Shown piece by piece: positions 7,421 to 55,425 of a DNA stretch of 64,000 bases; position 1 is the stretch's first letter; each line of letters opens with the position of its first letter. Below the pieces are notes generated by a model. The model did no database searches. It was not told the DNA's origin and saw only the letters and a list, made by a program, of their open reading frames with translations. The position numbers were made by a program, and so were the translations under genes. Origin of the DNA: Natronomonas aquatica (GTDB lineage Archaea; Halobacteriota; Halobacteria; Halobacteriales; Haloarculaceae); assembly GCF_024449025.1 (NCBI RefSeq), contig NZ_JAHLKM010000001.1, positions 124,001-188,000 of the forward strand, written 5' to 3'.

Positions 7421-8776
7421 TTACATTCCCGGCGGCAGGTCGCTACCTTCGAGCAGATCGAGCGCCTCCTCGCGTTCGATCTCGTAGGTCTCGATGTTCA
7501 CCTGGCCGGCCCCGTCGTAGGGGACGTCGGCGTCGAAGGACGACTCGCCGATCACACAGGACGCGTTCGCCTGGTGGTGAGTGGAATCGAGGGTGATGGA
7601 GCCGCGCGGGTCGTCGTCGTAGGTGTACCCCTCCATGACGTCGATGAGGTCGTCGGGATTCGTCCCGCCGGCTTCCTCGATAGCGTCGGCGTAGATCTGG
7701 ACCGCCGCCCACGTGCTCCCGCCGGTGAACGTGGGATACTCGGTGATGGAGTCGTCATCCGCGTAGGTTTCCTGGTACCGGTCGACGAACGCCTGATCCG
7801 CGTCGGTGTCGTAAGAGCCCGGCCAGTACCAACCCGAGTAGTGGACGCCCTCCGGCATCGTGTCGCCGAGCGCCTCGAAGTTGTCCGGGGAGGCCCCGAT
7901 GGTGTCGAGGACGTCGACGACCTCATCGAACAGCCCAGCCTCGGCCGCCTGGTCCGTGAAGGTGACCGTATCGCTCGCCCAGAAACTCGTAAAGACGAGT
8001 TCGGGATCGGCGTTCATCACGTTCGTGATCTGCGGCGTCATGTCGCCCGATCCCAGTTCGGGGAACTGGGATTCGACGACCTCGTAGTCGAATCCGAGGC
8101 CGTCCAGATACGCCTGATAGTACTCCCAGGTCTGTTCGCCGTAGGCGTAGTCGGGGCCCATGTTCGCGATGCGGGTGATATCCGGGTAGTTGTCGACGGT
8201 GAACTGCGCCATCGCGTACGTCATGTGGGCCGTATGGGAGTTCGTCCGGAACAGGTTCGGGATCCCCGCGGCGGTGCCGTCCTCCTCGTAGTAGCTGCCG
8301 TAGGTCTCGGTGTCGTGCTCCGTTATCCACGGCGTCCCGATGTCGGTAAGCGTGATCGGGACACCGAGCTGTTCCCAGGTCGGGCCGGTGTTCAGCGTGA
8401 CGCCCGAGGAGGTCATCCCGAGCAGCACGTCCGCTTCGAACTCCTGGACCAGGCTCCGGACCTGCGCCTGCGGGTCGTCGCCGTGGTCGCGGACCTCCAG
8501 TTCGATCTCGCGTCCGTCGATACCGCCGTCCTCGTTGATGGCGTCGACCGCGACCTGGGCGGCCGCTTCGGAGCCGGCCCCCAGCGCCTCGGCGAGCCCC
8601 GAGAGGAGATACGTCCCACCGATCCGGATCGGCCCCTCACCGTCGCCGTTCCCGCTACATCCGGCGAGAGTGACGGCAGCCCCGGATCCGGCGGCTGCGA
8701 GAAATCCTCGTCGGCTGAATCGACCCGACAGGTTGCTGTCGGACGTTGCGTGAGGTCTATCACCATGTCGAGACAT
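7421..8776 (-). CDS. livK: ABC transporter substrate-binding lipoprotein LivK-type
   Basis: A 451-residue type I periplasmic-binding protein (Leu/Ile/Val-binding family). The N-terminus has a twin-arginine signal (SRRGFLAAAG, residues 21-30) and a lipobox ending LAGC with Cys40, so it is a Tat-exported, lipid-anchored protein as usual in haloarchaea. It continues with IRIGGTYLLSGLAEALG. The ATG at 8774-8776 is preferred: the TATA-like TTGTATAATA lies about 25 bp upstream, and a longer frame would need a TTG inside that element. It precedes livM by 12 bp. Confidence 0.93.
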   Translation of the reverse strand: MSRHGDRPHATSDSNLSGRFSRRGFLAAAGSGAAVTLAGCSGNGDGEGPIRIGGTYLLSGLAEALGAGSEAAAQVAVDAINEDGGIDGREIELEVRDHGDDPQAQVRSLVQEFEADVLLGMTSSGVTLNTGPTWEQLGVPITLTDIGTPWITEHDTETYGSYYEEDGTAAGIPNLFRTNSHTAHMTYAMAQFTVDNYPDITRIANMGPDYAYGEQTWEYYQAYLDGLGFDYEVVESQFPELGSGDMTPQITNVMNADPELVFTSFWASDTVTFTDQAAEAGLFDEVVDVLDTIGASPDNFEALGDTMPEGVHYSGWYWPGSYDTDADQAFVDRYQETYADDDSITEYPTFTGGSTWAAVQIYADAIEEAGGTNPDDLIDVMEGYTYDDDPRGSITLDSTHHQANASCVIGESSFDADVPYDGAGQVNIETYEIEREEALDLLEGSDLPPGM

Positions 8777-8919
8777 GTCTATCGGTTGTTCACGGATATT
8801 ATACAAATAAGTATTGGTTACAATACGGACATTCTGGATGGGGGCTATCGAAAAAGCGGAAGAAGATGGCCGTTAACACAGCGAAAATTTTAACCCGCAA
8901 CTGACAGAGAGGTACTATA
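8777..8919. promoter_or_regulatory. Divergent promoter region livK-livM / livH-livG-livF
   Basis: A 143-bp A/T-rich divergent region. The leftward TATA is TTGTATAATA (minus strand, about 8797-8806), 25 bp before the livK ATG. The rightward TATA is AAAATTTTAA at about 8883-8892, 27 bp before the livH ATG. Both imply leaderless messages. No clear operator palindrome is seen. Confidence 0.6.
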
Positions 8920-9801
8920 ATGGTAAATGCTGGAATAGTACTCGACCAGATCCTCACCGGACTCAGCATCGGAAGCTGGCTGTTTCTGGTGTCGATCGGG
9001 TTGAGCCTGGTGTTCGGCGTGCTCGGCGTGTTGAACTTCGCCCACGGCGTCCTGTTCGCGATGGGCGCGTACGTGACCGTGTCAGCTGTTTCGAGCTCCA
9101 TCGGGAACTTCTGGATCGGCGTCGTCGCAGCCGGGGTAGTCGTCGGGGTCCTCGGTATCATCATCGAGATGGGGTTCATCAGGCGGCTGTACGGACGCGC
9201 CGAGGAGGAACTCGAACAGCTGCTTTTGACCTTCGCGTTCGTCCTCATCCTCGAGGACGGTATCAGAATGGTGTTCGGCTCCGGGACCCGGCAAATAGAC
9301 CCGCCGTCCGCCTTCGGCTTCGACATCGTGGTGGCCGGGTACTCGATGTCCTCCTACCGGGTGTTCGTCATCCTCGTCTCCTTTGCGGTGATGGGGGGGA
9401 TCCTGCTCACGCTCAAGACGACGAACTTCGGTCGGCTCGTCCGGGCGACCTCAAGCGACCGCGATATGGCATCGCTGCTCGGTGTCAACGTCCCCCGGCT
9501 CTATACGATGGTGTTCTTCATCGGGGCCGCCCTGGCCGGTATCGGCGGGGCCTTCGCCGCGCCGCTGCAGTCGGTGACGCCCGCCCTCGGTGAAACCGTC
9601 ATCATCGAAGCGTTCATCATCGTCGTCATCGGCGGCCTCGGCTCGTTCGTCGGCACCTTCTTCGGTGCCTACCTCGTCGGGATCATGATCGCGGTCGGGA
9701 GCATCTTCGCGGCCGGCGCGGGACAGCTGTTCCCCTTTATCGCGCTCATCCTCGTGTTGCTTCTCAAGCCGGAGGGGCTCACGGGAGGTGCCAACACGTG
9801 A
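8920..9801 (+). CDS. livH: Branched-chain amino acid-type ABC transporter permease LivH
   Basis: A 293-residue LivH-type permease with about eight transmembrane helices. It has the family stretch GVLNFAHGVLFAMGAYV near residues 36-52 and the ATPase-contacting loop RATSSDRDMASLLGVN near 180. The C-terminal end LKPEGL is typical of LivH/LivM permeases. The stop overlaps the livG GTG start by 4 bp (GTGA), indicating translational coupling. The start at 8920 lies 27 bp downstream of a TATA element. Confidence 0.94.
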   Translation: MVNAGIVLDQILTGLSIGSWLFLVSIGLSLVFGVLGVLNFAHGVLFAMGAYVTVSAVSSSIGNFWIGVVAAGVVVGVLGIIIEMGFIRRLYGRAEEELEQLLLTFAFVLILEDGIRMVFGSGTRQIDPPSAFGFDIVVAGYSMSSYRVFVILVSFAVMGGILLTLKTTNFGRLVRATSSDRDMASLLGVNVPRLYTMVFFIGAALAGIGGAFAAPLQSVTPALGETVIIEAFIIVVIGGLGSFVGTFFGAYLVGIMIAVGSIFAAGAGQLFPFIALILVLLLKPEGLTGGANT

Positions 9802-34371: not shown

Positions 34372-35628
34372 GTGACCCGCGAGATCGACGCCGTCGAGGC
34401 ACGGGAGATACTCGACAACCGGCTGGAACCGACACTCCGCGTGACGGTTCGAACCGAGGACGGGACGGCCGGACAGGCGGACGTCCCGCGCGGTCGTTCC
34501 CGCGGCGTTCACGAAGCCGTCGATCTGCGGGACGGCGGGGATCGCTACCGGGGAAAGGGGGTCAAAACCGCGGTCAGAAACGTCGAAGAGCGGATCGAAC
34601 CGGCACTCGTCGGCCACAGCGTGACCGATCAGGCCGGGATCGACGCGCTGCTTCGGGAACTCGACGGCACCCCCGACGGATCGAACCTGGGCGGAAACAG
34701 CTTGACCGGCGTGTCGCTCGCGGCGCTGAAGGCGGGAGCGAAATCCCACGACCTCCCGCTGTACCGGTATCTCGGCGGGCCAGCCGCGACGACGATCCCG
34801 ATCCCGCTCGTCGATCTGATCGAGGGGGGCGAACTCGGAGCCAGCGGCCTTCCGTTCCAGGAACACCAGATCGTCCCGACCGGGGCCGACAGCTTCGGGG
34901 ATGCGATACGGATGTGCGCGGAGGTCTACTACGAACTCGGCGACGAACTCGCCGAAAGCCACGGCGAAAGCGCACTGAGCGTCGGCGACGAGGGGGGATA
35001 CACGCCCGCGACGATGACCGATCCCCGCGACGCCTTCGACAGCATTCTCGACGCGGTTCGGGCGTGCGGCTACGAGGACGTCTTCGAGTTGGGGATCGAT
35101 GCGGCCGCGACGCATTTCCACGATCCCGACGACGGGACGTACCGGCTCGCCGACGGGACCTACACGCGCGGCGAATTACTCGAGTTCTACGCCGAACTCG
35201 AGGAGACGTATCCGCTGGTCTCGATCGAAGACCCCCTCGAGGAGGACGATTTCGAGGGGTTCGCGACGCTTTCCGATCGACTCGATGCCCAGATCGTCGG
35301 CGACGACCTCTTCGTGACGAACGACGAGCGGCTGCGGAAGGGGATCGACATCGGTGCCGGCGACGCGCTGTTGTGCAAAATAAATCAGGTCGGGACGGTG
35401 AGCGAAGCGATCGAGGCGGTCGAAACCGCACGGGAAAACGGGTACGCGATCCAGGTCTCCGAGCGATCCGGCCAGACGGCCGACACCTGGCTCGCGGAAG
35501 TCGCGGTCGGACTCCGCGCGGCCCAGATCAAAACAGGGACGACCCGGAGCGAGCGGACCGAACAGTACAACCGCCTGCTCGAAATCGAAGCGGAGTGTGA
35601 CGGCGGGTACGCGGCGTGGCCACGATGA
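34372..35628 (+). CDS. Enolase-superfamily enolase paralogue with altered active-site histidines
   Basis: A 418-residue full-length enolase fold, closer to bacterial/eukaryotic enolases (GVHEAVDLRDG, VSIEDPLEEDD, RSERTEQYNRLLEIE) than to the usual haloarchaeal type. Compared with yeast enolase it keeps Ser43 (Ser39), Glu164 (Glu168), Glu207 (Glu211), the metal ligands Asp243, Glu286 and Asp311, Lys336 (Lys345) and Lys387 (Lys396). The loop His159 is Leu155, and His373 in SHRSGET is Glu364 (VSERSGQTAD). SGAST in the substrate lid reads RGRSR. So metal binding and the base remain but 2-phosphoglycerate recognition is changed. GTG start; the stop overlaps the kinase-like gene by 4 bp. Confidence 0.85.
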   Translation: MTREIDAVEAREILDNRLEPTLRVTVRTEDGTAGQADVPRGRSRGVHEAVDLRDGGDRYRGKGVKTAVRNVEERIEPALVGHSVTDQAGIDALLRELDGTPDGSNLGGNSLTGVSLAALKAGAKSHDLPLYRYLGGPAATTIPIPLVDLIEGGELGASGLPFQEHQIVPTGADSFGDAIRMCAEVYYELGDELAESHGESALSVGDEGGYTPATMTDPRDAFDSILDAVRACGYEDVFELGIDAAATHFHDPDDGTYRLADGTYTRGELLEFYAELEETYPLVSIEDPLEEDDFEGFATLSDRLDAQIVGDDLFVTNDERLRKGIDIGAGDALLCKINQVGTVSEAIEAVETARENGYAIQVSERSGQTADTWLAEVAVGLRAAQIKTGTTRSERTEQYNRLLEIEAECDGGYAAWPR

Positions 35629-36986
35629 GTTCCGGCGACCGGGACCGGTTCGTCCAAAACAGCGCCCGGCTGCTCGGCCACGGCGACCGGGCCGGCCGGC
35701 GCGTGGTGCTCGATATCCTCGAAGACACACTCGAGGCGCTTCGCCCGGCACGGCTGATAGATGACACCGTAAGCCTGGAGGGGGACGACCTCTCGATCGA
35801 CGGCACGGATTACGATCTCGATGGATTCGAGAGCCGGTATCTCCTCGCGGCCGGCAAGGGTGCGACGGCGTTCGCCCGGCCGCTGTCCGAATCCCTCGAG
35901 GATCGGCTGACGGACGGGATCGCCGTCGACAAACGAGACCAGACGAGCGAGATCGCCGGCGTCGACGTGCTCGAAGCCGACCATCCGATCCCCTCGACGG
36001 AAAGCGAGCGGGCGGGCGAAGCCGTCCTCTCGATGGCCGATACGGCCGGGACCGACGACCTCGTCCTCGTCGTCGTTACCGGCGGGGCGTCGGCGTTGCT
36101 CTCGACTCCGCCACCGGGGGTGACGGTAGCCGAACAGGCGACTGTCACCGAAACGCTCCTGCGGGCGGGCGCCCCGATCGAGGACATCAACGCCGTTCGG
36201 AAACACGTGAGCCGGATCAAGGGCGGACGGCTGACCGAGCGGCTCCGGCCGGCGACGGTCGTTACCCTCGTCGTGATCGACGAGGTCGCGGGCGAGCCGT
36301 GGGGACCGACCGTCCCCGATCGGACGACGCCGTCGGACGCGATCGCGGCGCTGAAACGCCACGGCTGCTGGAACGAAGCGCCGAGGGCCGTTCGGGAACA
36401 CCTCCGCGATGGCGACCGACGCGGGACGCCGGCGTCGTTTCACGAGCCGGCGGCGGTAGCCGTCCTCGCGGACGGTGCCGACGCCTGCGACGCGGCCAAA
36501 GAGAGCGCGCGGTCGAGGGGGCTTGAGGCCGCGATCCTCTCGACATCGATCGAGGGCGAGAGCCGAACCGTCGGGCGGACGATCTCGAGTATCGCGGCGG
36601 AAATCGCCGAAGCGGGCCGGCCGTTCGAGCCGCCCTGCGTACTCGTCTCCGGCGGCGAAACGACCGTGACGGTTCCCGACGACGCCGGGACCGGCGGCCC
36701 GAACCAGGAGTTCGCGCTCGCGTGTGCCGATCGGATCGATGGGCTCGCGGTTACCGTCGTCGCGGTCGACACCGACGGCACCGACGGTCCGACGGAACGC
36801 GCCGGCGGGATCGTCGACGGGGACACCGCGAGACGGGCGGCCGACGCCGGCGTCGATATCGATGCGGCGCTCCGTGCTCACGACACCACGACCGCGCTCG
36901 CCGAAATCGGAGACGACGTGTACACCCGTCCCGGAACGAACGTCAACGATCTCCGGCTCGTCTACGTCGCCGACCGCTCCGAGTAG
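35625..36986 (+). CDS. Glycerate 2-kinase-like protein (MOFRL family), divergent
   Basis: A 453-residue two-domain glycerate kinase homologue. Conserved blocks are VVVTGGASALLSTP, RKHVSRIKGGRL, SGGETTVTV with GTGGPNQEFAL, and the C-terminal MOFRL end GTNVNDLRLVY. The segment that in normal members reads SDVxGDxxxxIASGPTVP is remodelled and shortened to IDEVAGEPWGPTVP, so the active site differs from that of the other kinase in this window (50987-52297). It overlaps the enolase-like gene (ATGA), implying consecutive reactions: phosphorylation of a glycerate-like acid, then elimination by the enolase-like partner. Confidence 0.83.
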   Translation: MSSGDRDRFVQNSARLLGHGDRAGRRVVLDILEDTLEALRPARLIDDTVSLEGDDLSIDGTDYDLDGFESRYLLAAGKGATAFARPLSESLEDRLTDGIAVDKRDQTSEIAGVDVLEADHPIPSTESERAGEAVLSMADTAGTDDLVLVVVTGGASALLSTPPPGVTVAEQATVTETLLRAGAPIEDINAVRKHVSRIKGGRLTERLRPATVVTLVVIDEVAGEPWGPTVPDRTTPSDAIAALKRHGCWNEAPRAVREHLRDGDRRGTPASFHEPAAVAVLADGADACDAAKESARSRGLEAAILSTSIEGESRTVGRTISSIAAEIAEAGRPFEPPCVLVSGGETTVTVPDDAGTGGPNQEFALACADRIDGLAVTVVAVDTDGTDGPTERAGGIVDGDTARRAADAGVDIDAALRAHDTTTALAEIGDDVYTRPGTNVNDLRLVYVADRSE

Positions 36987-50157: not shown

Positions 50158-50985
50158 ATGAGCGATCGAACGGTCGTCATCACCGGCTGTTCGTCCGGCA
50201 TCGGCCGGGCGGCGGCGTACGCGTTCTTGGACGAAGAGTGGCAGGTCTACGCGACAGCACGCAACCCCGCCGATATCGAGACGCTGGGGGAAGCAGGCTG
50301 TGAGATCGGCACGCTGAACGTTCGGGATCCCGACGACATCGAGCGTGTCGTCGATCGGATCGTCGAGGCAGAGGGGCGGCTCGACGCCGTGGTGAACAAC
50401 GCCGGCTACGGCCAGCACGGTCCCCTGGAGGACATCGACGACGAGCGCTTCGAAAAGCAGTTCGACGTCAACGTCTTCGGACCCCACCGGCTGATCCGCG
50501 AGGCGCTGCCGCACATGCGCGAACGAGGGGACGGAACGATCGTCAACGTCTCCTCGGTCGCCGGTCGGCTCGCCGCGCCGGGGATGGGAGCGTACGCGGC
50601 GTCGAAATACGCTATCGAGGGGTACAGCGACTCGTTGCGGCGCGAACTCGAGCCGTTCGGGATTTCGGTCAGCGTCGTCCAGCCCGGGCCGGTCGAGACG
50701 AACTTCCGGGACCGTGTCGGCGACGAACTCGGCCGGCTGGAACGGACCGAGGCCTACGAGGACCTCTATGAGTTCCAGGAGGACGCCACGCTCATCGGCG
50801 GGGACGGCCCGCTCGCGGTCCACCCGGCGGCGGTCGCGGAGGCGATCGTCGAGGCCGCCGTCACGCCGGATCCCGAACCGCGCTACGTCGTCGGGCGGGC
50901 CGCCCAGCTTCTGGTCTATGCGAGCTACCTCCCCGACCGCATCGAGGACCGGATCTTCGCGGCGATCCGTCGGTTCAGTTCCTGA
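50158..50985 (+). CDS. Short-chain dehydrogenase/reductase
   Basis: A 275-residue classical SDR: cofactor loop TGCSSGIGRAAA near residue 9, NNAG in VVNNAGYGQHG, catalytic Ser in NVSSVAGRL and YAASKYA (Tyr and Lys). ATARN after strand 2 suggests NADP(H) preference. The C-terminal 40 residues are like retinol-dehydrogenase-type SDRs. It is 1 bp from the next gene, a glycerate kinase, so reduction of hydroxypyruvate- or tartronate-semialdehyde-like substrates is conceivable but unproven. Confidence 0.88.
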   Translation: MSDRTVVITGCSSGIGRAAAYAFLDEEWQVYATARNPADIETLGEAGCEIGTLNVRDPDDIERVVDRIVEAEGRLDAVVNNAGYGQHGPLEDIDDERFEKQFDVNVFGPHRLIREALPHMRERGDGTIVNVSSVAGRLAAPGMGAYAASKYAIEGYSDSLRRELEPFGISVSVVQPGPVETNFRDRVGDELGRLERTEAYEDLYEFQEDATLIGGDGPLAVHPAAVAEAIVEAAVTPDPEPRYVVGRAAQLLVYASYLPDRIEDRIFAAIRRFSS

Positions 50986-50986
50986 T

Positions 50987-52297
50987 ATGTTCGAACACCG
51001 TGACCGGCTGGCGGCGACGCCGGCCCACGAACTCGCCTTGGACTGTCTGGCGGCGGGCATCGAGGCCGCCCGTCCCGACCGGGCCGTCGAGCGACACTGC
51101 TCGCTCGATGGCGATACCCTCCGGATCCGCGGGGCCGAATACGACCTCGCGGCGTACGATTCACTCCGTATCCTCGGCGGCGGGAAGGCGGCCGACGACC
51201 TCGCGGCGGCCTTCGAGGCGCTTCTCGGCGACCGCGTGGACGGCGGCGTCGTCGTGACGAACGAGCCGACGGCCGACCCCGAGCGCGTGACGGTCCGGCG
51301 GGGCGAACACCCCACACCGGGGGAGGGAAGCGTCTCGGGAGCGCGTGCCGTCCTCGACGCCGCGGCGGCGGCCGACGAGCGGACGCTCGTGATCGCGGCG
51401 ATCGCAGGGGGCGGCAGCGCTCTGCTCTGTGCGCCCGTCGCGGGACTCGCAGTCGAGGAGATGCAGGCGGCCACCGACGGCCTCCTGAACGCCGGGGCGT
51501 CGATCGACGAAATAAACGTCGTCCGGCGGGCCTGCTCGGAGATCAAGGGCGGCGGGCTGGCGGCCGCCGCGGCCCCGGCGACGGTCGTCGGCGTCCTTAT
51601 CAGCGACGTCGTCGGCGACAAACTTCCAGTCATCGCCAGCGGGCCGACGGTTCCGACGGGGACCGACCCGGCGGGCGCGCTCGAGGTGCTCGATCGGTAC
51701 GACCTCGACGTGCCGGCGGTCGGGGAGTACCTCCGGGCGGCCGACCCGGAGGCGCCCGCGGACGTCGACGTCGACAACCACGTCGTCGTCTCCGGACGCG
51801 ACGCGGTCGACGCAGCCAGAGAAATCGCGGCCGACCGGGGCTATTCGACGTGTGTCCTCTCGACGCGGATCGAGGGCGAAGCGACCGCTGCGGGGCGGAT
51901 CCACGCCGCGATCGGGGCCGAGGCGGCCGAGAGCGGCGATCCACTCGCCCCGCCCGGGGTCGTCCTCTCGGGCGGGGAGACGACGGTCCGGGTGACCGGC
52001 GACGGGACCGGCGGTCCCAACCAGGAGTTCGCTCTCGCGGCCGCGGATGGGCTCCCCGAATCGGCCATCCTCGGCGCCGTCGACACCGACGGCGAGGACG
52101 GCAGCACCGACGCCGCCGGCGCGCTCGTCGACGCGGGGACGGTCGAGGACCCGGCGGCGGCCCGCCGGGCGCTGGAGAAAAACGACAGCTACGGCTTTCT
52201 CGAGCCGAAAGGCGGGCTGCTCCGGACCGGCGCGACCGGGACGAACGTAAACGACCTCCGCGTCCTCGTCGTGCCCGAAAACGACGGAGACCGCTAG
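50987..52297 (+). CDS. Glycerate 2-kinase (MOFRL family)
   Basis: A 436-residue glycerate 2-kinase with all usual motifs: AIAGGGSALLCAP, ACSEIKGGGLAAA, ISDVVGDKLPVIASGPTVP, SGGETTVRV with GTGGPNQEFAL, and GTNVNDLRVLV. It makes 2-phosphoglycerate from D-glycerate and ATP for entry to lower glycolysis. It follows the SDR gene by 1 bp. Its stop overlaps the convergent ArsA stop inside one CTAG (52294-52297). It is a paralogue of the altered copy at 35625-36986. Confidence 0.92.
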   Translation: MFEHRDRLAATPAHELALDCLAAGIEAARPDRAVERHCSLDGDTLRIRGAEYDLAAYDSLRILGGGKAADDLAAAFEALLGDRVDGGVVVTNEPTADPERVTVRRGEHPTPGEGSVSGARAVLDAAAAADERTLVIAAIAGGGSALLCAPVAGLAVEEMQAATDGLLNAGASIDEINVVRRACSEIKGGGLAAAAAPATVVGVLISDVVGDKLPVIASGPTVPTGTDPAGALEVLDRYDLDVPAVGEYLRAADPEAPADVDVDNHVVVSGRDAVDAAREIAADRGYSTCVLSTRIEGEATAAGRIHAAIGAEAAESGDPLAPPGVVLSGGETTVRVTGDGTGGPNQEFALAAADGLPESAILGAVDTDGEDGSTDAAGALVDAGTVEDPAAARRALEKNDSYGFLEPKGGLLRTGATGTNVNDLRVLVVPENDGDR

Positions 52298-53352
52298 TCG
52301 AGACAGCTCGCGACGACGCCCAACATCGCCTCGCCGCGGACCGCCTCCGCAAACAGCGGTATCCGCTTTACCTCCCGCCCCCGGAAGAGGTCCTGGGCCC
52401 GCGAGAGAGCCTCCCGCTGGACCTCCCAGCGCCGCCGGCAGAACTCGCAGTTCTCGGTGTCGGGGGCGACGAACCACTCCTCGTCGAGCCCCGCGGCGGC
52501 GGTCAGGTCCTCGCTGACGCGGTTGACGACCACCGTTCCGACGGGGATCCCGAACCCCTCCAGCCGGTCGATAAGGCGTTCGCTCTCGGTGACGCTCATC
52601 GCCTCGGGGATCGTCACGACCCGGAAGTCGGTCCGGGAGGGATCTTCGAGGGCGGCCCGTAGCTTTTCGATCTTCGCGGAAAGTTCCTTCAGGCTCGCCG
52701 TTCCGTCCTCGACCGTGTCGTCGTCACCGAAGAACCCGCCGAGGCTCCCGGCCATCCCCGAGAGCCGCTGTTTGAACGCGAGCAGCCGACCCATCATGGA
52801 ATCCATCACCTCGGGTAACTCCAGCAGTCTGAGGGTGTGGCCGGTCGGGGCGGTATCGACGACGACGCGCTCGAACCGCGGGTCGTCGAGATACTCGATA
52901 AGTAGCTGCATGGCGGCCGCCTCGTCGGCGCCGGGCATCGCGCCGCCGAGCGGATGGCCCGTCTCGCCGCCGAGCAGTTCGCCGAGGCCGCCGAGCCCCG
53001 TCCCGTCGAACTCGGTGTCGACCGTATCGTCGGCCCCCGCCGCAAACGGGCCCTCGAACGCCGTCGATTCGGGATCGATCTCGACGGCGAAAAGCGGGCT
53101 GTACTCCCTGATTCGGGTCGGCTCCGCCGGGATGTCGGTCTCGAGGGTATCCGAAAGCGAGTGGGCCGGATCCGTCGAGACGACGAGCGTCGGCGTCCCA
53201 CCACGGGCGCTGGCCAGCGCCGTCGCGGCGGCACAGGTCGTCTTGCCGACGCCACCCTTCCCGCCGTAGAGGACGTATTCCGGCGCGTCGACGCCGGCGG
53301 GCGGGTCTGCCGTCTCGATAGACTCGACCGGCTCGACGGTGAGTTCGCTCAT
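52294..53352 (-). CDS. ArsA/Get3-type ATPase
   Basis: A 352-residue deviant-Walker-A ATPase. The P-loop is YGGKGGVGKTTCAAA near residue 30, switch I STDPAHSLSDTLE, switch II DTAPTGHTLRLLELP, and a C-terminal CEFC pair like the zinc-binding CxxC of Get3 dimers. The single-domain length is Get3/TRC40-like, for handling tail-anchored membrane proteins, rather than double-length bacterial ArsA. No arsenic genes are nearby. Confidence 0.9.
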   Translation of the reverse strand: MSELTVEPVESIETADPPAGVDAPEYVLYGGKGGVGKTTCAAATALASARGGTPTLVVSTDPAHSLSDTLETDIPAEPTRIREYSPLFAVEIDPESTAFEGPFAAGADDTVDTEFDGTGLGGLGELLGGETGHPLGGAMPGADEAAAMQLLIEYLDDPRFERVVVDTAPTGHTLRLLELPEVMDSMMGRLLAFKQRLSGMAGSLGGFFGDDDTVEDGTASLKELSAKIEKLRAALEDPSRTDFRVVTIPEAMSVTESERLIDRLEGFGIPVGTVVVNRVSEDLTAAAGLDEEWFVAPDTENCEFCRRRWEVQREALSRAQDLFRGREVKRIPLFAEAVRGEAMLGVVASCLD

Positions 53353-54049: not shown

Positions 54050-54396
54050 TGTAACTGTAGGGAGGGGCCGCATGTATATAAATTCGTCGTTCAATACCAT
54101 CTGATACCATCAAAATACAGAAGCTACCTAGTAAGAGCATATAAACGGCGAGGAGAACCATCAGCCGGGGGCGGCTGTCGATGCTGTCGGCTGTAATTTC
54201 GTGAAGCTATTCCGCGGGGTAGGAATCCCCCCGGAATCGCTATCGCCGACAGTATGACCGCATACGGCCGCCCGATTCTCTACTAAATTGTGCTTGCGTG
54301 CGAGCACGTACACGAATGTTCGGACAGGAGGCGCGATCGAAAGAGCCCCCACAGGGCCGTATCGATACCCCCTGTTTTAACAGTCCGACCGTGGTC
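54050..54396. other. 347-bp divergent intergenic region with nested hairpin
   Basis: No gene is recognised. The region has the TATA of the coiled-coil gene at its left. At 54181-54191/54245-54255 there is an 11-bp inverted repeat (one G-T pair) that encloses a second stem at 54209-54219/54227-54237 (ATTCCGCGGGG with CCCCCCGGAAT, one mismatch). CTGTTTTAACAG at 54372-54383, an inverted repeat, lies where the TATA of the APH gene would be. Confidence 0.6.
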
Positions 54397-55425
54397 ATGG
54401 CTGACATGTCGTTTACCCTATCGCCGGACACCGCCGCGGCGTATCTCGCCGGACGCGGGGAGATAGCCGACCCGTCCGCCGTCGTCGAGGCCGCCGAACT
54501 GGGCGGCGGCGTCTCGAACCGCGTCGTGATGGTCCGAACAGGGGAGGACTGTCTCGTGCTCAAACAGCCGCGCCCGAACCTGGACGTCGAGGCCGACTGG
54601 CCCGCCGACGTCGACCGGGTCCACAACGAGGCGGCCGCCACCCGTACCTACGAGGCGCTTTTGGCGCCGACGGAGCTACCGGCGACGGTGCCGGGCGTCC
54701 GCTTCGAGGACGACGAAGACGACGTCGTCGGGTTCGAGTGTGCGCCCGACGACGCCCGGATGTGGAAGGCCGACCTCCTCGGGGGGAGCGTCGACGTCCG
54801 CGTCGCCGAGGCGGTCGGGGACGTACTGGGAACGGTCCACGAGGGGGCGGCCGACGAGCCGGAGCGGTTGGCCCCCTTCGAGAGCAAACTCCCCTTCGAT
54901 CAGCTCCGGATCGACCCCTACCACCGGACGGTCGCCCGCCGACACCCGGACGTCGCCGGGGCGGTCGAGGCGGCGACCGAACGGCTGCTCGATTCGAAAC
55001 GGACGCTCGTCCACGGCGATTACAGCCCGAAGAACGTCCTCGTCGAGGACGACGACACGTTCCGGGTCTGGATCCTCGATTTCGAGGTCGCCCACCGCGG
55101 CGATCCGACCTTCGATACGGCGTTCATGCTCAATCACCTCTTTATCAAGTCGGTCTACAACGCCGACCGGGGCGCCGAGTACCGCGAGGCGGCCAGAGCG
55201 TTCTTCGACGCCTACGATGGGCGTGTCACCTGGGATATCGAGGCCGAGACCGTCGAGGAACTGGGCGTGCTCATGCTTGCCCGGGTCGACGGCAAGTCGC
55301 CGGTCGAGTACGTCGAGCGGACGGAGACCAAAGAGACCCTGCGTCGGATCGCAAAGCGGACGCTGACCGACCCGATCCGGGATCTGGACGCCTTCGAGCG
55401 GCTCGTCCGGACAGAGACGGCCTGA
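54397..55425 (+). CDS. Aminoglycoside-phosphotransferase-family small-molecule kinase
   Basis: A 342-residue APH/choline-kinase-fold protein. The ATP Lys is in CLVLKQPRP, the catalytic loop is LVHGDYSPKNVLVE (HGDxxxxN) and the metal Asp is in ILDFEVAHRGDPTFD. The fold also covers methylthioribose kinase, fructosamine kinase and homoserine kinase II, so the substrate is probably a metabolite rather than a drug. ATG 54397 or 54406 are both near 26 bp from the TTTTAA element. It points at the sugar-acid genes downstream. Confidence 0.83.
   Translation: MADMSFTLSPDTAAAYLAGRGEIADPSAVVEAAELGGGVSNRVVMVRTGEDCLVLKQPRPNLDVEADWPADVDRVHNEAAATRTYEALLAPTELPATVPGVRFEDDEDDVVGFECAPDDARMWKADLLGGSVDVRVAEAVGDVLGTVHEGAADEPERLAPFESKLPFDQLRIDPYHRTVARRHPDVAGAVEAATERLLDSKRTLVHGDYSPKNVLVEDDDTFRVWILDFEVAHRGDPTFDTAFMLNHLFIKSVYNADRGAEYREAARAFFDAYDGRVTWDIEAETVEELGVLMLARVDGKSPVEYVERTETKETLRRIAKRTLTDPIRDLDAFERLVRTETA

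Follow-up and report, generated by a model that had tools for sequence, protein, structure and literature searches.

A co-inherited pair of an altered enolase and an altered glycerate-2-kinase homologue in haloarchaea

In the window (the whole stretch of 64,000 nucleotides of Natronomonas aquatica DNA that was analysed), we found two overlapping genes that encode an altered enolase, here called EnoX, and an altered homologue of class II glycerate-2-kinases, here called KX. EnoX and KX are under purifying selection and have matching trees, which shows a module that is alive and inherited together. It is real, apparently functional and built from altered versions of known enzymes; that it works as a kinase followed by an enolase is very probable. 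The initial annotation had proposed that the pair acts on a different hydroxy acid. The pairing itself held up in co-occurrence, adjacency and clade structure, while the change of substrate is a reasonable reading of the altered residues that goes no further than plausible.

EnoX (34372..35628, + strand, 418 aa) begins at a GTG codon preceded by a GGAGG element and ends at TGA. The Enolase_N and Enolase_C domains (PF03952/PF00113) matched along its full length, it scored 442.8 bits against the TIGR01060 eno equivalog (cut-off 300), and the NCBI family models (NCBIfam) name it plain enolase / phosphopyruvate hydratase. Its AlphaFold2 model (pLDDT 92.5) had M. jannaschii enolase (MJ0232, PDB 2pa6) as top PDB match, with a TM of 0.93. 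EnoX therefore has the fold and length of enolase (EC 4.2.1.11), but differs from it in being genetically tied to a kinase and in being additional to a normal enolase in all nine genomes searched. The codirectional KX frame opens with an ATG that overlaps the EnoX stop codon as ATGA (35625..35628, +). KX runs to a TAG codon at 36986 (35625..36986, +, 453 aa); for its start we adopted the ATG at 35625, where the mechanical call was a 456-aa ORF from the GTG at 35616. Its DUF4147 and MOFRL domains both exceed curated cut-offs. The frames, the overlap and the domains all agree with the earlier description of a full-length enolase fold joined to a MOFRL kinase homologue. The AlphaFold2 model of KX (pLDDT 91.3) matched only 1x3l and 2b8n in the PDB, which are the sole solved relatives among class II glycerate kinases. 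The G+C content of EnoX (0.663) and KX (0.700) against that of the window (0.666) gave no clear compositional signal of horizontal transfer.

To locate the changes in EnoX we used an alignment of 13 EnoX, 10 EnoY (a second altered haloarchaeal clade, described below), 16 canonical haloarchaeal and 28 ordinary other archaeal enolases, MJ0232, M. tuberculosis enolase and two extra enolases of a related genus (L090 and L119). Positions carry yeast numbers, assigned from the family motifs. S39, Q167, E168, E211, D246, E295, D320, K345, R374, S375 and K396 are kept in 13/13 EnoX, which covers the Mg-I ligands, the Mg-II serine, both catalytic lysines, both catalytic glutamates and the phosphate-contacting Arg and Ser. 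Among these are the residues that the initial annotation had listed as kept (D243/E286/D311, E164, E207, K336 and K387 in EnoX). Four lid or substrate-contact positions are instead fixed in an altered state in every EnoX, as A38R, T40R, H159L and H373E; E377Q and a change of RGNPT to RLEPT are fixed as well. In lid loop 1 (PRGRSRG, residues 39-45; 34486..34506, +), yeast A38 and T40 correspond to R42 and R44, and S39 is retained as S43. The GRSRG lid is invariant in all 13 and occurs in 0/56 of the EnoY, canonical haloarchaeal and ordinary enolases in the table. The lid had been described as SGAST changed to RGRSR; this is what the window's protein has, except that the first Arg (yeast S36) varies among R, C, H and A across the clade, leaving A38R and T40R as the fixed change. 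Lid loop 2 (EGGELGASGLPFQE, residues 151-164; 34822..34863, +) carries L155 for H159 and keeps Q167/E168 as Q163/E164. The motif VSERSGQT (residues 362-369; 35455..35478, +), located by alignment and pattern scan, carries E364 for H373 and Q for E377 and keeps R374/S375. Both histidine replacements had been claimed from the window alone and recur in 13/13 EnoX, and Glu at the H373 position was seen in none of the 16 canonical haloarchaeal, 10 EnoY and 28 other archaeal enolases, nor in MJ0232 or the M. tuberculosis enzyme. The equivalent of H159 in M. tuberculosis enolase, His154, contacts the 2PG hydroxyl and is among only three residues that contact 2PG and PEP in every conformation (PMC10619443), so its invariant loss in EnoX alters the substrate site itself and not the periphery of the enzyme. 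Salt adaptation alone does not account for this loss, since the 16 canonical haloarchaeal and 10 EnoY enolases keep H159.

KX is altered as consistently as its partner. At 36279..36311 (+) it reads DEVAGEPWGPT in place of SDVxGDxxxxIASGPT and is four residues shorter. By alignment and motif search, the corresponding pattern [IV]DExAGxPWGPT was present in 13/13 KX and absent from the other kinases examined, while SDV[VIL]G was present in 22 of the 22 other kinases that gave a motif-search match (26 searched). The Asp of SDV (D219) and the GPT are retained with four residues between them deleted, and we therefore regard this as a rebuilt loop and not as a lost segment. The GKG, VRKH, KGG, GGETTV, DGTDGPT and GTNV motifs are retained in most or all KX. 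An earlier description of kept flanking motifs around a rewritten segment is thus right about the loop and largely right about the motifs, but has to be amended for D219 and GPT. KX also meets the class II glycerate-2-kinase consensus, D-X(0,2)-G-X(0,1)-D-[GP]-X(4)-[APS]-[ACDGST] (PMC2063504), with DGTDGPTERAG. It shares this motif, its domains and its fold with PH0495 (1x3l), TM1585 (2b8n) and T. tenax GK, and differs from them in the loop. Scores of 197 and 143 bits against equivalog models with cut-offs of 550 and 670 do not discriminate, because the ordinary haloarchaeal copy also falls below them. A second, ordinary MOFRL kinase of the same genome lies within the window, outside the pair (50981..52298, +, start approximate) and carries SDVVGDKLPVIASGPT.

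Across 392 genomes of the order, EnoX and KX were found in the same nine and neither was found elsewhere. EnoX-type enolases are 60-75% identical to the window's EnoX, followed by a gap down to 46% or less, and the nine best matches of a separate KX scan (100-47%) came from precisely the nine EnoX genomes. These are the window's own genome, one congener, four members of one genus and three genomes from two further families. When two peptide patterns taken from EnoX were run against 84,980 species genomes, six loci came back, all of them haloarchaeal (Natronomonas, Haloarculaceae, Haloplanus and Haloferacaceae records); two repeat genomes already found. Haloplanus ruber is a carrier that has been cultured. 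KX adjoins EnoX in all 13 distinct loci, with the order reversed in one (G029). Separation of the two genes in relatives, which the initial annotation had singled out as evidence against a pair, was thus seen in 0/13 loci, and neither gene occurs without the other in the 392 genomes. Each of the nine carriers also has a normal full-length enolase and a second MOFRL kinase; in the window's genome the normal enolase lies upstream of an rpsB-like gene on contig C24. EnoX as the sole or housekeeping enolase with odd residues, which had been offered as the simpler account, is thereby ruled out.

In the enolase tree, EnoX (13 sequences), EnoY and the canonical haloarchaeal enolases form separate clades, each with support of 100/100. 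KX likewise forms a clade (100/99) whose inner branching is nearly the same as that of EnoX, and the distances within the two families correlate (mirror-tree r = 0.91, Mantel p = 0.0001). The predicted co-inherited clades therefore exist for both proteins. The label of paralogue suits them in that they are homologues standing beside normal copies, but neither is a recent copy: both are only ~45% identical to the housekeeping proteins and fall in clades of their own. This separation of clades gives no support to a recent duplication within haloarchaea, although a tree in which EnoX joins the canonical haloarchaeal enolases was not rejected by an AU test (p = 0.16). Between close pairs, dN/dS was ~0.13-0.26 for EnoX and ~0.2-0.36 for KX. 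These values, well below 1 for both genes, together with the constancy of the metal and lysine residues across all 13 EnoX and the strict co-occurrence, make it very unlikely that EnoX is a decayed, regulatory or otherwise non-catalytic (moonlighting) enolase with KX as a passenger, as might be supposed from the loss of two otherwise conserved histidines and from one KX that is split over two frames. Chance or sequencing error behind the EnoX and KX changes is ruled out by their invariance in 13 independent loci and by purifying selection. The split KX is that of genome G260 (L041, ~8303-9648, -), whose first ~95 residues lie in another frame, which may reflect a frameshift or mis-sequencing. 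The same genome also holds EnoY-like fragments (C1:826979-827446); both of its extra enolase modules may be decaying, or the assembly may contain errors.

We infer that KX and EnoX act in sequence, as a two-step catabolic (or salvage) module, and that they act on a relative of glycerate modified at C3 and not on glycerate. KX would phosphorylate a small 2-hydroxy acid at its 2-hydroxyl, and EnoX would bind the resulting 2-phospho acid with two Mg ions; Lys336 would take the C2 proton, and Glu164 and Glu207 would help to expel the C3 group, leaving an enol-phosphate. We suspect a substrate other than glycerate because H159 has become Leu, the other active-site His has become Glu and the lid has gained two Arg, because a conserved kinase loop has been rebuilt in the same genomes, and because the carriers already have both normal enzymes. 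The case for a non-glycerate substrate nevertheless stands only at the balance point, as does the complete proposal of a module acting on a C3-modified glycerate relative. Candidate substrates with an extra charged or polar group at C3 would include tartrate, erythronate or threonate, sulfolactate and isoserine. The carboxylate cluster of E164, E207 and E364 could hold a cationic group and the two lid arginines an anionic one; the residues by themselves therefore do not pick among the candidates. Slightly short of an even chance is that the pair represents an undescribed route, in which a non-glycerate 2-hydroxy acid would be phosphorylated at C2 and undergo an enolase-type elimination to a new phosphoenol acid, or to PEP with something other than water leaving (e.g. 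sulfite or ammonia).

The main rival to a new substrate is that the chemistry is unchanged and only the lid has been rewired: KX would make 2-phosphoglycerate from D-glycerate and EnoX would convert it to PEP, giving a self-contained shunt that differs in kinetics, direction or salt behaviour. R42 would then supply the positive charge lost at H159, and R44 would pair with E364. We consider this possible, if somewhat doubtful. All acid-base and metal residues are kept in EnoX, the family models call EnoX an enolase and find KX glycerate-kinase-like, and the wide margin of EnoX over the enolase equivalog cut-off was itself counted against a new substrate. In addition, a branched Entner-Doudoroff pathway in which glycerate kinase takes part is presumed to operate in haloarchaea (PMC2063504). 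Such a shunt would, however, sit beside a normal enolase and another MOFRL kinase in 9/9 carriers, and it has to contend with fixed changes in both partners that always travel together and with the 26 other haloarchaeal enolases of the table that keep H159.

The extra enolases L090 and L119 bear on the same question. They come from two genomes (G518 and G596) of a genus in the same phylum that has no methyl-coenzyme M reductase (non-methanogenic), and they are sister to EnoX with support of 76/95. Like EnoX they have T40R and H373E and accompany a normal enolase, here of haloarchaeal type and elsewhere in the genome (L120, L121), but they keep H159 and have A38L. The joint presence of T40R and H373E in EnoX and in these sisters, as would be expected of a compensating pair, favours at least the R44-E364 compensation, with the caveat that the two lineages may share one event. 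The added Arg and Glu may thus compensate each other in a site rewired without any new substrate. When 393 genomes of the phylum were scanned for VSERSG[EQ]T, the matches that we read were enolases in G518, in G596 and in EnoX carriers; five more matches lie in other genomes. From these residues the G518/G596 enolase is an apparent evolutionary intermediate, and the simplest history would have T40R and H373E arise first, followed in haloarchaea by H159L, A38R and the link to the kinase. The T40R/H373E enolase of G518 is on a different contig from both MOFRL genes of that genome. A second MOFRL kinase of G518 (L127) has a shortened SDVIGDPLDYITGPT loop and GENVVE for GGETTV.

A further alternative would have EnoX transfer a proton without elimination: KX would phosphorylate lactate or another acid that lacks a C3 leaving group, and EnoX would racemise or epimerise the product, for instance to supply 2-phospho-L-lactate for coenzyme F420. 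Leu in place of the His that contacts the C3 hydroxyl would suit a substrate without that hydroxyl, and racemisation occurs elsewhere in the wider enolase superfamily. Yet F420 is general in haloarchaea while the pair occurs in only nine of the 392 genomes, and EnoX retains the two glutamates of elimination, Glu164 and Glu207, so we judge this improbable, even though the lactate kinase of F420 synthesis (CofB) is unidentified in Euryarchaeota (PMC8498797).

We compared flanks of ~9 kb on each side (up to 7 kb for four extra loci). Close relatives aside, the flanks of the 13 loci share no conserved third gene near the pair, and a larger operon is ruled out, since only the pair itself is common to them. 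With no conserved neighbour beyond the pair, we name no pathway. In two of the 13 loci, both Natronomonas-type, a D-2-hydroxyacid dehydrogenase gene lies convergent and end-to-end with KX (L053:3652-4623; L054:9606-10568, -); the L053 protein scores 250 bits against a haloarchaeal equivalog cut-off of 400. A dehydrogenase in this position fits a 2-hydroxy-acid substrate, though it is convergent, stands outside the operon and is absent from most loci. The neighbours at the G029 locus encode a sodium:solute symporter, a DUF6282 protein, a cyclase-family protein and a creatininase-family protein.

The customary view gives enolase a single function and a single substrate. The carboxyphosphonoenolpyruvate synthase of the bialaphos pathway, which belongs to bacterial secondary metabolism, is an enolase homologue whose function is new and whose substrate is a related phospho acid. 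Our search of the open-access literature found neither an enolase like EnoX nor an archaeal kinase-enolase pair. If the proposal is true, EnoX would be a true enolase-family member with re-specialised catalysis, and if the substrate differs, the module would add a step that archaeal metabolic maps do not yet show. With its re-set site and its loop-altered kinase partner, the EnoX clade also offers a ready test of how enolase specificity changes, and the change can perhaps be followed stepwise, with T40R and H373E present in the sister lineage and H159L, A38R and the kinase link confined to haloarchaea.

A parallel to EnoX and KX is found in EnoY, the other altered haloarchaeal enolase clade, which carries E168D and H373A. 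Outside the window's genome, a kinase of the APH type (PF01636) adjoins EnoY in 9/9 loci examined, several with short overlaps. EnoX and EnoY are thus alike as altered enolases beside a kinase, but they belong to different clades and their kinases to different families. Haloarchaea have thus joined a kinase to an H373-altered enolase on two occasions, which supports the kinase-then-enolase logic of both. In the window's own genome, EnoY lies outside the window (C19:205283-206506; L006:17278-18546), near two GD_AH (galactarate/altronate dehydratase) genes and an HpcH/HpaI aldolase gene. An APH-family (MtnK-like) kinase that is a 55% homologue of the EnoY-adjoining kinase elsewhere is encoded in the window at 54298-55425 (+), unlinked to EnoY, ~26 kb before it, and ~2 kb from the ordinary MOFRL kinase.
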